A stretch of DNA of 28,362 nt. Origin: a virus. A program made the position numbers and the translations under genes. The DNA lies in IMG/VR virus record IMGVR_UViG_3300042326_001267, positions 1 through 28,362 of that record; one strand, given 5' to 3'. The notes beneath the pieces were generated by a model, which saw only the letters and a program-made list of their open reading frames with translations, searched no databases and was not told where the DNA came from. Of the stretch, positions 4,603-27,194 are shown piece after piece (the first letter of the stretch is position 1; the number at the start of each line of letters is the position of its first letter).

Positions 4603-4610
4603 TATTTTTG
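4603..4610 (+). promoter_or_regulatory. Promoter -7 box TATTTTTG
   Basis: TATTTTTG matches the Bacteroidota consensus TAnnTTTG exactly. A clear -33 TTTG at the right distance is not seen. Transcription would begin near 4615 and run into the folded element and the replication initiator gene. Confidence 0.55.
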
Positions 4611-4614
4611 TAAA

Positions 4615-4745
4615 GGCACTAACAAGCCGATGATAGGTAAAAACAAAATTTAACCGAGCCGTTTGTTCGGGGGTAGCGTGAGAAAGGAGGCCCACCTTGG
4701 CCAATTGTTAGCCTTACTTACCGCCCCCGCACAAATGGCTTTTTT
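4615..4745 (+). ncRNA. Structured RNA or attenuator before the replication gene
   Basis: The RNA strand can form one long branched hairpin. The outer helix 4657-4666/4731-4740 has ten pairs (one G-U). After one mismatch, 4668-4673 pairs with 4724-4729 (six pairs, five of them G-C runs). An inner helix 4678-4682/4713-4717 has five pairs, and GGCC 4689-4692 pairs with GGCC 4699-4702. Six T follow directly (4740-4745), as in an intrinsic terminator, and the next start codon is only eight bases further. It could be a small phage RNA with its own terminator or a leader that attenuates the initiator gene. It matches no RNA family I recognise, and no open frame of note lies in it. Confidence 0.6.
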
Positions 4746-4753
4746 ATTAAGAT

Positions 4754-5536
4754 ATGAAACAACTACCTTGGTTCAAATTTAGCCCAGCCGACTGGATGAT
4801 GGGCAGAATATCCCGCCAATCTTGCGAGGTTCAGGTGGCATTTTTGCGGCTATGCTGCATCTATTGGAATGCCGAATGCGAGATGACAGTTGAACACGCC
4901 GAGTTGGAATGCGATGGCTATTTCGACCGCCTTGTGGCCCTGAAAATGGTTGAGGTTATTGGCGATAAAATTGGCATTAAATTTCTTACCATTCAGTACA
5001 TTGAAGGTAGCGAAAAGCGGCAAAAAATGTCCAACGCTGGCAAGGCATCTGCCCAACAAAAGCTTAACGAACGTTCAACGAATGTTCAACAAACGTTCAA
5101 CGAATGTTCAATAGAGAAGAGTAAGAGTAGAGAAGAGAAGAGTAGAATAAGAGTAGATAAAGAGAGTAAGGGCACATACACACGTGAAAACTTTATTGAT
5201 GATTTACTGGGCGAATTCAAAACCGATGCCGATTTGCGAAGCGTAACGAAAACATGGCTTCAAAAGAAAAAGGTAATTACCGAAAAGTCGATGCAAATTT
5301 CAAAGGCCGAAATACAAGGGCATAACAAAAGCGAAATGTATGCAGCGATAATGGCCGCAGCCGACAAAGGTTGGGCACAGCTATACAGCCGAAAAGATAA
5401 GCAAGGCAAAGGCACATCAACAAGTTTACCTGCTGGTAAGCCTTGGTTAGACCCAGCAACCATAGCCGCAGCCAAGGCGAGTGCCGAGCGGCTTAAGAAA
5501 CTTGAAAACCGAAGCGAGGGCGTAACACAATTTTAA
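4754..5536 (+). CDS. Phage replication initiator / replisome organiser
   Basis: 260 residues. The N-terminal domain (1 to about 92: WFKFSPADWMMG, QVAFLRLCCIYWNAE, a winged-helix-like rest) resembles the N-terminal domain of phage replisome organisers of the Lin1244/Lin1753 type. A polar linker (about 93-145) is coded by iterons and a purine-rich tract. The C-terminal part (about 145-230: FIDDLLGEFKTDADLRSVTKTWLQKK) would contact the helicase loader. By analogy with lambda O, the protein would bind the repeats within its own gene and recruit the loader encoded at 6146. Its expression is probably controlled by the promoter and folded RNA upstream. No helicase or polymerase is encoded here, so host enzymes are presumably used. 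Confidence 0.78.
   Translation: MKQLPWFKFSPADWMMGRISRQSCEVQVAFLRLCCIYWNAECEMTVEHAELECDGYFDRLVALKMVEVIGDKIGIKFLTIQYIEGSEKRQKMSNAGKASAQQKLNERSTNVQQTFNECSIEKSKSREEKSRIRVDKESKGTYTRENFIDDLLGEFKTDADLRSVTKTWLQKKKVITEKSMQISKAEIQGHNKSEMYAAIMAAADKGWAQLYSRKDKQGKGTSTSLPAGKPWLDPATIAAAKASAERLKKLENRSEGVTQF
5066..5109 (+). repeat. Four tandem 11-bp iterons
   Basis: Four head-to-tail units: AACGAACGTTC (5066-5076), AACGAATGTTC (5077-5087), AACAAACGTTC (5088-5098), AACGAATGTTC (5099-5109). Units 1-2 and 3-4 form a 22-bp repeat with one mismatch. The first unit holds the palindrome GAACGTTC. The 11-base period does not fit codons, so the repetition is selected at the DNA level and not for protein. Likely binding sites of the initiator encoded by the same gene. 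Confidence 0.85.
5110..5172 (+). other. Probable origin unwinding tract
   Basis: A 63-base stretch next to the iterons contains no C on this strand; it is built of GAGAAGAG and GAGTA words. Iterons followed by a strand-asymmetric purine-rich tract inside the initiator gene is the layout of the lambda origin and several other phage origins. It encodes part of the charged linker of the initiator (EKSKSREEKSR). Confidence 0.7.
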
Positions 5537-5545
5537 GCAGCAAAA

Positions 5546-6130
5546 ATGGAACAGCATAAATTGAACCCAGCGTTAAAAACAGATAGCTTTTCTTTTCTTG
5601 AATGTTCTTGGGAAAGCGTAAAGCATTTGTTTCTTGCTTACCATTACCTTAAAACAATGCCAGCAGGAATAATGGCAGTTTATGGATTGTTCGATGAAAG
5701 GGAATTGGGCAAAGCGGTAGGAGGGGCTGTTTTTTGTAACGGCAGAATACAATACGATGGAAGGCTTTTAGAGTTTAGCAGAATGTGGATAAGCGACCAT
5801 TACGGCACAAATACAGAAAGTTGGTTTATGGCCAAATGCCTAAAAGCACTTAACAAGAAATTCCCAACTCATGAAGGAGTTGTAACATGGGCAGATTGCA
5901 ATATCGGGCATAACGGTACAATTTATTTGGCAGCAAATTTCGTATATGATGGGGAAAGCAGAACGGTTAAAAAGTTCTTAGGCAAAAACAAAAAGGTTAT
6001 TTACGAAAGAACATCAACTTCATCCGACATTTGCATTGGCAAAGAAATGCCCAAAAAAAGATTTATATACTATTTTGATTCTAAAATACGTGAACAAAAA
6101 AAGCAGCAACCTAAAACACAAAAACCTTAA
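5546..6130 (+). CDS. Mom-like DNA modification protein (GNAT fold)
   Basis: 194 residues. It shows the pattern I associate with phage Mom-family proteins: YHYLK at 32-36, a GGAVFCNG strand near 59-66, EFSRMWI at 76-82, an ESWF helix start at 91, and WADCNIGHNGTIY (115-127) followed by AANFVYDG. In phage Mu, Mom modifies adenine (described as methylcarbamoylation), protecting DNA from restriction. The same role is inferred here. The gene is visibly richer in A and T than its neighbours, which suggests separate acquisition. The basic C-terminal tail (KKRFIYY...REQKKQQPKTQKP) could help DNA binding. It lies between initiator and helicase loader. Confidence 0.7.
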   Translation: MEQHKLNPALKTDSFSFLECSWESVKHLFLAYHYLKTMPAGIMAVYGLFDERELGKAVGGAVFCNGRIQYDGRLLEFSRMWISDHYGTNTESWFMAKCLKALNKKFPTHEGVVTWADCNIGHNGTIYLAANFVYDGESRTVKKFLGKNKKVIYERTSTSSDICIGKEMPKKRFIYYFDSKIREQKKQQPKTQKP

Positions 6131-25726: not shown

Positions 25727-26838
25727 AAGCAGCCTAATTGTCGGCCCTTGCCATCGGTCGTAATTGTATGCCTTGGGTTACCAATTAAGCCAAGCAATTC
25801 GTTTACATCGAATGAATCCACATCGTGAACTATCAAAACGCCATTTTCGGCTACCTTTTTTTGGTAGTATTGCACCAATTCTTGAATAACGCTGGGCCCG
25901 TGATAGCTGTCGTGAAACACCACATCATATTTTTCATCGTTTTGCAGTTCTTTTTCGCCTGATGTTATGCGAAAATCAATTAAATATGGACTGCAAAACG
26001 CAATGTTTGCCTTTAAATGTTCATCGCTGATGTCGATTGTCTTTACCGACATGCCAGCCATTGCCATGGCCTTTGCCCCATGTGCCTTAAAAGTACCTAC
26101 TTCAAGGGCCTTGCCGCCTTTGTATTGCTTGGCCACGTTGTAAATTTCGGTTATGTGCATTTTGTCCGTTATCCACGTATGAGCAAAGTCCCAGTTTTCA
26201 ATTTGTGATTCGGGGTTCCCCCATTCAAAGTCATTGTTACCTTCGTAAATTGAGTAATTTGCTGATGAGTGAAAAGCCAACACTTCTTCATTGGGGATAT
26301 TTGTATTAACGTCCATCACGTTCAACCGCTTGTCGGCCAGCGTTACCAAGTTTTTGAAGACCTGATTTGAAACGCATTGGTCGCCCCATATGTTTTCGTA
26401 CCTGAAATAGTTGTTGTAGCAGAAATCAAATATCGGCTTGTGCTTGCGGTTGGCCACAAACCAACCAGCATTGAAATAGGTTGAGGGCTTTAATCGATAT
26501 TGCTGTTCAAGGCCACGGGTGTGATCATTGTCCCGGTCAAGGCAAAAGTAAACGTCTTTGAAATCGGGCAAATGATCTGCCAAATCGAAATCCCGAACGG
26601 GCCGCCAATCGCAGTCATGATACATTACCAAATCAAGGTCGGGCCAAATATCCCAAATCTTGTACTTCAATGTCCACACCATTTCTTTAAACTGATGCAA
26701 GTTTAATGCATGGTGCAAATGTTCATCCGTTATAATTCGGGTTTCAAGTCCAAGATGCTTACGGACAAGTTCTGCCGATTTTTCAGCGTGCTTCAGGTAA
26801 TCGCCAATGCCGATGGTTACCGCTACGGGTTTTTTCAT
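25711..26838 (-). CDS. Glycosyltransferase-methyltransferase fusion
   Basis: 375 residues. Residues 1 to about 230 look like a GT-A fold glycosyltransferase: VAVTIGIGDYLKHAEK start, MYHDCDWRP at 72-80 with a D-x-D metal motif, YFNAGWFVANR at 121-131 and WGDQCVSN at 151-158. Residues about 235-375 are a class I SAM methyltransferase: ALEVGTFKAHG (244-254), KTIDIS (266-271), VVFHDSYHG (286-294) and NGVLIVHDVDSFD (312-324). One protein may therefore transfer and then methylate a sugar, or decorate a polymer end. Its reverse orientation in a forward-strand region suggests a late-acquired accessory gene; it overlaps the DnaA-like gene by ATGA. Confidence 0.78.
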   Translation of the reverse strand: MKKPVAVTIGIGDYLKHAEKSAELVRKHLGLETRIITDEHLHHALNLHQFKEMVWTLKYKIWDIWPDLDLVMYHDCDWRPVRDFDLADHLPDFKDVYFCLDRDNDHTRGLEQQYRLKPSTYFNAGWFVANRKHKPIFDFCYNNYFRYENIWGDQCVSNQVFKNLVTLADKRLNVMDVNTNIPNEEVLAFHSSANYSIYEGNNDFEWGNPESQIENWDFAHTWITDKMHITEIYNVAKQYKGGKALEVGTFKAHGAKAMAMAGMSVKTIDISDEHLKANIAFCSPYLIDFRITSGEKELQNDEKYDVVFHDSYHGPSVIQELVQYYQKKVAENGVLIVHDVDSFDVNELLGLIGNPRHTITTDGKGRQLGCFYSGL

Positions 26839-27194
26839 TTTGTTGTAGATTGAATTATGTTGTAAATTTTAAACCATTTACCGGGCACGTTTTTTTTGAA
26901 AAACAAAACCCGTTGAACGTGCTGCCCAACCGTTACCCGATTGATGCCGATAAGTTCTGCCGCTTCGCCGCTTGACAACCCTTTCATGGCCACGAAATAA
27001 TAAGACGCAATTCGCTTAATGTCGGAATACTGCCGCCGTGTTGCACCCCGAAATGCGGCGTAATCAACCCCGTAGTATGCACAAAGCGACCAAAGAAAGT
27101 CATCGGCTGCCAGCGAAATGCGGCGATTCAGTTCGCTATTTACCGCAAATTTAAGGTCGAAAAGTTCGGCCAATGAAAGTTGTGCCACGTTCAT
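26835..27194 (-). CDS. DnaA domain IV-like protein
   Basis: 119 residues. Residues about 31-98 follow the DnaA C-terminal layout: DDFLWSLCAYYGVDYAAFRG, a basic RRQYSDIKRIASYYFVAM helix, LSSGEAAELIG and the recognition-type NRVTVGQHVQRV. The match resembles the protein at 2189 in order and spacing (YGV, R-rich helix, IG turn, V-x-H/V-x-x-V), though the RDHSTV core is replaced by NRVTVG. It probably binds DNA and could control its own divergent promoter region or the downstream fusion gene. Coupled to that gene by ATGA. Its promoter box (minus strand 27207-27200) lies five bases before the ATG. Confidence 0.65.
   Translation of the reverse strand: MNVAQLSLAELFDLKFAVNSELNRRISLAADDFLWSLCAYYGVDYAAFRGATRRQYSDIKRIASYYFVAMKGLSSGEAAELIGINRVTVGQHVQRVLFFKKNVPGKWFKIYNIIQSTTK

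Follow-up and report, generated by a model that had tools for sequence, protein, structure and literature searches.

The CI RNA of phage P4 and the C4 antisense RNAs are small and stable; they originate in the leader of a phage replication operon, carry complementary segments and are linked to the termination of transcription. In the pistol ribozyme, the loop of a 5' hairpin pairs with a strand in the internal loop of the next hairpin, and an architecture of two pseudoknots and an A-rich linker is characteristic of ribozymes and riboswitches. In the plasmids of the I-complex, a pseudoknot in the rep leader, upstream of the initiator gene, is needed for translation and is blocked by an antisense RNA (PMC8383071), with differences in the loops setting the compatibility of these plasmids (PMC10724649). 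By comparison of mechanisms, this last leader (ColIb-P9/IncI-complex, with its repZ pseudoknot and the antisense RNAI) is the nearest case to the element described here. Structured regulatory RNAs have hardly been described in phages of the Bacteroidota, a phylum whose RNA biology is poorly known, and our search of the literature returned no such RNA from these phages.

What we present here is a pseudoknotted RNA of ~131 nt, representing a new, previously uncatalogued RNA family of phages, found in a virus record of 28,362 bases (the window, meaning the whole stretch of DNA analysed). The host would belong to the Bacteroidota, judging from the promoter type and the protein relatives. The RNA has a knotted fold with strong comparative support, its predicted 5' end coincides with the first paired base, its place is fixed, and its alleles can be swapped. 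It offers a concrete candidate on which the control of phage replication by an RNA could be tested. We regard it as practically certain that a conserved RNA structure, kept by selection, is present at this site.

Promoter, extent and fold of the RNA

The promoter, the helices (P1 to P5), the pseudoknots (PK1 and PK2) and the following gene occupy these positions of the window:

4603-4610, plus strand: Bacteroidetes-type -7 promoter box TATTTTTG, recognized from the sequence (consensus TANNTTTG/TAHHTTTG; PMC6847099)
4615-4745, plus strand: predicted RNA of ~131 nt, from the putative start to the end of the U-run (-7 rule, fold z-score and model match)
4615-4628, plus strand: P1 mini-hairpin, GGC 4615-4617 with GCC 4626-4628, loop 4618-4625 (covariation)
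4619-4625, plus strand: PK1 5' strand CTAACAA, in the P1 loop (pairs with 4705-4711, in nine covarying versions)
4635-4638, plus strand: PK2 5' strand AGGT, after P1 (pairs with the P5 loop, 4694-4697)
4658-4666 with 4731-4739, plus strand: P2, basal terminator stem (alignment comparison)
4669-4673 with 4724-4728, plus strand: P3, 5' strand GGGGG (alignment)
4678-4687 with 4712-4721, plus strand: P4, variable covarying stem (alignment)
4689-4702, plus strand: P5 hairpin, GGCC...GGCC, whose loop ACCT (4694-4697) is the PK2 3' strand (alignment, permutation)
4705-4711, plus strand: PK1 3' strand TTGTTAG, between P5 and P4 (100% paired in 16 of 16 rows)
4740-4745, plus strand: U-run T6, terminator-like end (in all common-form alleles, one of them C-interrupted; missing in variant C)
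4754-5536, plus strand: downstream replication gene phrog_29280, with iteron-like repeats at 5066-5111

An earlier note on this DNA had reported a promoter box followed by a hairpin that ends eight bases before an initiator ATG, and this arrangement stands: the hairpin (4658-4739) closes directly onto T6, and exactly 8 bases lie between the end of T6 and the ATG at 4754. Across the common form, the distance from the U-run to the next start codon is 8-19 nt. Most relatives read TATATTTG at the -7 box in place of TATTTTTG. In Flavobacterium johnsoniae, the G of this box (consensus TAHHTTTG) lies at -5 (PMC6847099); the same rule places the predicted +1 at 4615, the first base of the P1 mini-hairpin. 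The gap between box and P1 is 3-5 nt across all alleles, with the predicted start at most one base away from the first base of P1. No good -33 TTTG box is evident in the window at the standard spacing from the -7 box. At the other end, the signature of an intrinsic terminator, a GC-rich stem (P2/P3) followed by T6, is present in the common form and absent from variant C, a strongly diverged form of the RNA. A covariance model matches 4611-4745 with 151 bits, the window sequence being among those on which the model was trained.

The RNA from 4610 to 4748 folds with -50.5 kcal/mol, compared to -33.65 +/- 3.88 kcal/mol for dinucleotide shuffles (z -4.34; 0 of 200 as good), and its reverse strand gives a z of -2.09. 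The multi-helix hairpin of the earlier note is thereby upheld, but its helix lengths (10 + 6 + 5 + 4) give way to the 9 + 5 + 10 + 3-4 pairs supported by the comparison. In two alignments (A5 and A7) of 16 distinct rows each, both including the strongly diverged variant, changes on both sides support P1, P2, P4 and P5. The outer pair of P1 swaps between G-C and A-U on both sides and is 100% paired, and 6 of the 10 pairs of P4 have changed on both sides, whereas P3 does not vary in the common form, where it is uninformative, and has lost part of its pairing in variant C. Alignment A7 was fitted to a model lacking PK1, and matches of the model to the antisense strand, a palindromic echo of the hairpin, were kept out of it. 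In A7, 94% of the cells are paired, as opposed to 38-51% for slid structures; the shuffle controls are uncorrected for kinship among the sequences, for which the slid-structure control and the count of changes on a tree correct in part.

The strongest comparative evidence for the fold comes from PK1, a 7-bp helix in which the P1 loop pairs with a strand of the long hairpin. Double changes affect 5 of its 7 pairs in A7, and on a tree built without the PK1 columns they amount to at least 17 independent double changes, with no pair-breaking ones. The loop occurs in nine versions (CTAACAA, TTAAGAC, TTAACAC, TTAGAAC, CTAAGAA, GTAAGAA, GTGAAAA, GTAGAGA and GTAGCAA), all fully complementary to the partner strand, GTAGAGA by means of one G-U pair. 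PK2 also varies in step (AAGGU/ACCUU, UGAGC/GCUCA, UGAAAG/CUUUCA and, in variant C, GCCA/UGGU), and shuffling its loops among the sequences, uncorrected for kinship, reached the observed score in 5 of 2000 trials; because it is short, we call it likely, not certain. The earlier note had missed the best-supported part of the structure, namely the mini-hairpin at the 5' end and the pseudoknots, and folding without pseudoknots misses PK1 as well.

Folding of the nascent prefix, through the PK1 3' strand, includes PK1 in the best fold of most alleles, whereas in the full-length RNA the P2-P5 hairpin is more stable than a nested PK1, by 8 kcal/mol or more and in most cases by 10-20 kcal/mol (row L009 was left out of this comparison). 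PK1 forms first in the fold of the nascent prefix, yet it is compatible with P4 as a pseudoknot. Either PK1 and P2-P5 can be present together, as a pseudoknot, or PK1 can come first and P2-P5 later, and each of these readings demands the observed covariation.

Distribution of the RNA and exchange of its alleles

A protein search found the replication gene on 34 IMG/VR contigs, and DNA pattern scans together with the covariance model located the RNA upstream of it in all of them, 29 times in the common form and 5 times as variant C. The site is constant: after the SSB operon, before the replication operon and directly ahead of a start codon. Ten long records, some of them possibly incomplete, carry one plus-strand copy each and gave no tyrosine integrase match, so that lysogenic immunity is not indicated.

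Variant C keeps the promoter, P1, PK1, P4, P5 and a long basal stem, and has no U-run. Its covariance-model score is 30-33 bits (E ~0.002-0.011, the E-values of a home-made model being rough), and its homology is convincing because of the synteny, the promoter spacing and the independently matching PK1. Since the fold is kept without the U-run, it would matter apart from termination, and a terminator function would not be essential; the attenuator proposed in the earlier note is, for this reason, not a general property of the RNA family. At L033:2454-2583 (also in L030 and L032), a short open frame starting ATGAATAGATTAACAAAAATTGCC spans the variant C element.

Pattern, descriptor and model searches found no relatives of the RNA beyond this clade, and pattern matches in the isolate-derived or bacterial contigs L074-L076, L188 and L190 were rejected as chance. 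Relatives of the exonuclease at 40-50% identity gave neither a match to model R2 nor a convincing descriptor match, and in four cultured flavophage relatives the replication genes overlap or abut the preceding gene, leaving no space for the RNA.

Near-identical phages carry different versions of the RNA. The window and L050 are 96.2% and 98.0% identical in the flanks and only 83.3% in the RNA core, with 92.5/98.3% and 76.7% for the window and L057, and 94.2/100% and 74.2% for L061 and L058. Conversely, copies of the TTAGAAC allele are 95-98% identical between phages that share only ~52% identity in their upstream flanks. Differing alleles in near-identical phages and shared ones in divergent phages indicate that alleles have been exchanged between lineages, and they track neither the replication-protein type nor the iteron type. 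L046 and L061, which come from the same metagenome (3300042319), both have the rare GTAAGAA allele although their upstream flanks are only ~46% identical, suggesting a recent exchange.

Comparison with known RNA families

At the gathering threshold, none of the 4227 families of Rfam 15 matches the window, L033, L058 or L046, and permissive scans gave nothing near threshold. The earlier note had called the element an unknown structured RNA, naming covariation analysis and a search against RNA family models as checks; both were run, and with compensatory changes abundant among the homologues and no Rfam match, this description is borne out. The only named bacterial family with any weak score is RAGATH-19 (RF03096), which we rejected: it reaches 25.9 bits (E 0.024-0.055) against a gathering score of 85.6, its match begins upstream of the promoter, and its stems are out of register and split covarying helices. 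The diverged relatives give no match to it.

Like the ColIb-P9 rep leader, the phage RNA lies ahead of a probable initiator gene and has a covarying pseudoknot between a loop and a downstream strand (PK1). In contrast to it, the partner strand lies inside a terminator-type hairpin and not beside the ribosome-binding site, the RNA has its own promoter, a U-run and a second pseudoknot, and the presumed host phylum of its phage does not rely on Shine-Dalgarno sequences. We identified no antisense RNA; one minus-strand TAAATTTG box lies at 4774-4781 and, by eye, is absent at the other downstream gene starts. Since no antisense RNA was found and the partner strand belongs to a terminator-type hairpin, we do not file the RNA as a member of the I-complex rep leaders. 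It may be compared with P4 CI and C4, which are likewise small leader RNAs of phage replication operons that contain complementary segments and bear on termination, but it has no Rfam match at E up to 10.

Possible roles at the head of the replication operon

To the left of the RNA lie genes for an Erf-type annealing protein, an exonuclease, a DnaA-C-like protein and SSB, and to the right the replication gene (phrog_29280), a Mom-like gene, a DnaC-like loader and the terminase. The replication gene has no confident Pfam domain; its context makes it a probable lambda-O-like initiator, and its distant relatives in cultured flavophages directly precede primase/helicase or DNA replication genes. 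Which gene follows the RNA directly differs among the relatives: it is one of two replication-protein types, a ParB-methyltransferase or an HNH-like gene, and in many cases extra genes, 1.6-2 kb in all, stand between the RNA and the replication gene. At L058:6908-8350, as in many relatives, a ParB-like/N6-N4 DNA methyltransferase fusion is encoded in this interval.

Given the 8-19 nt from the U-run to the ATG, the operon would have no promoter of its own there, and its expression would require read-through from the promoter of the RNA or from one further upstream; reached only by read-through, the operon would have in this element a gate by position. The reading that we favour, over a small RNA, an origin-linked transcript, a ribozyme or riboswitch and a bare terminator, is that of a pseudoknotted leader RNA with its own Bacteroidetes-type promoter, which would head and control the replication operon, perhaps with an allele-specific action in trans; we hold it tentatively, at somewhat less than an even chance. 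The nascent RNA of such a leader would form PK1 while the 3' strands of P4, P3 and P2 are still to be transcribed. The P2-P4 terminator hairpin would then be completed, most transcripts stopping as a stable RNA of ~131 nt, and regulated read-through would express the replication operon, while in variant C the RNA would act as a plain structured leader. The differing loop sequences of the exchanged alleles would set the specificity, each phage RNA acting on its own kind.

This leader reading is weakened by the varying first gene, by alleles that do not track the replication-protein type, by variant C without a U-run, by the lack of an identified antisense RNA, and by the failure to find, upstream, a conserved antiterminator strand complementary to P2/P3; the mosaic pattern of alleles would also be expected from recombination alone. 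A leader-peptide attenuator was rejected: a seven-codon reading frame (MIGKNKI at window 4630-4653, ending at a conserved TTAACC) is present in many alleles, and its ATG is lost in L041/L069, L046/L061 and L048. We consider unlikely an allelic system of RNA specificity, in which the 7-nt kissing sequence would determine whether a replication operon, of the phage itself or of related phages in the same cell, is silenced or licensed, as RNA-based incompatibility or superinfection control in phages for which no integrase was found.

A lesser but substantial share of our belief goes to an autonomous small RNA acting in trans on targets of the host or of other phages, for example in host takeover or against host defence, which would merely reside at the border of the module, read-through being incidental. 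The RNA forms a complete transcription unit: its predicted 5' end falls on the first paired base, and every common-form allele has a U-run. The flanking genes have been exchanged on both sides while the RNA stays, and its alleles shuffle between lineages. However, it always precedes the replication operon (34 of 34 contigs), variant C without the U-run would be part of the downstream mRNA unless processed, and a target is not known. From sequence, small RNA and leader or attenuator cannot be told apart. The pseudoknotted core would also suit a self-cleaving ribozyme or a ligand-sensing riboswitch, with the two pseudoknots and A-rich linker typical of them and a contact between the P1 loop and an internal loop that recalls pistol. 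Yet no ribozyme or riboswitch of Rfam matches, the pistol model included, the PK1 partner strand lies on the 3' side of the internal loop and not on the 5' side as in pistol, and no alternative expression platform is obvious, so we hold this to be very improbable. Even less credit is given to an ordinary intrinsic terminator that would serve the upstream operon, look bidirectional and have no function as an RNA. The GC-rich stem with its U-run and the stable reverse strand would fit it, but part of PK1 falls outside the hairpin, the pairs of PK1 have undergone at least 17 double changes, the fold persists in variant C, which has no U-run, and the promoter box stands at a fixed spacing; PK1 covariation and variant C led us to reject it, in agreement with the view of the earlier note that the element is more than a plain terminator.

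Transcription through the iteron-bearing gene could instead activate or prime an origin, with the structured terminator limiting this transcript, a role we find improbable, although slightly less so than a ribozyme or riboswitch. Some 450 bp downstream of the predicted RNA start, the replication gene contains four 11-bp iteron-like repeats (AACGAACGTTC) together with a purine-rich tract (window 5066-5168). Lambda-type initiator genes carry internal origins of such kind, which the repeats and the tract resemble. Against this role, 1.6-2 kb of extra genes intervene in many relatives, the RNA alleles do not track the iteron or initiator type, and the GC skew has no clear turning point at the RNA locus. 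DnaA boxes are no more frequent than by chance. In L028 and L033, which have the other replication-protein type, the same linker contains different repeats (around AAGGGCACATCA), and the initiator N-terminus and the iterons seem to swap together.

Other genes of the window were recorded in passing. The Mom-like DNA modification gene (Pfam Mom, 81.9 bits; 5546-6130) lies directly 3' of the replication gene, and some close relatives are without it. The DnaA C-terminal DNA-binding domain-like gene at 2189-2668 scores 30.1 bits with Pfam Bac_DnaA_C, just below the cut-off, and a second such gene was recognized by eye only at 26835-27194. The reading frame at 255-752 has a long alanine-rich repetitive stretch (AARAAARAAAWGAAWGAA...).
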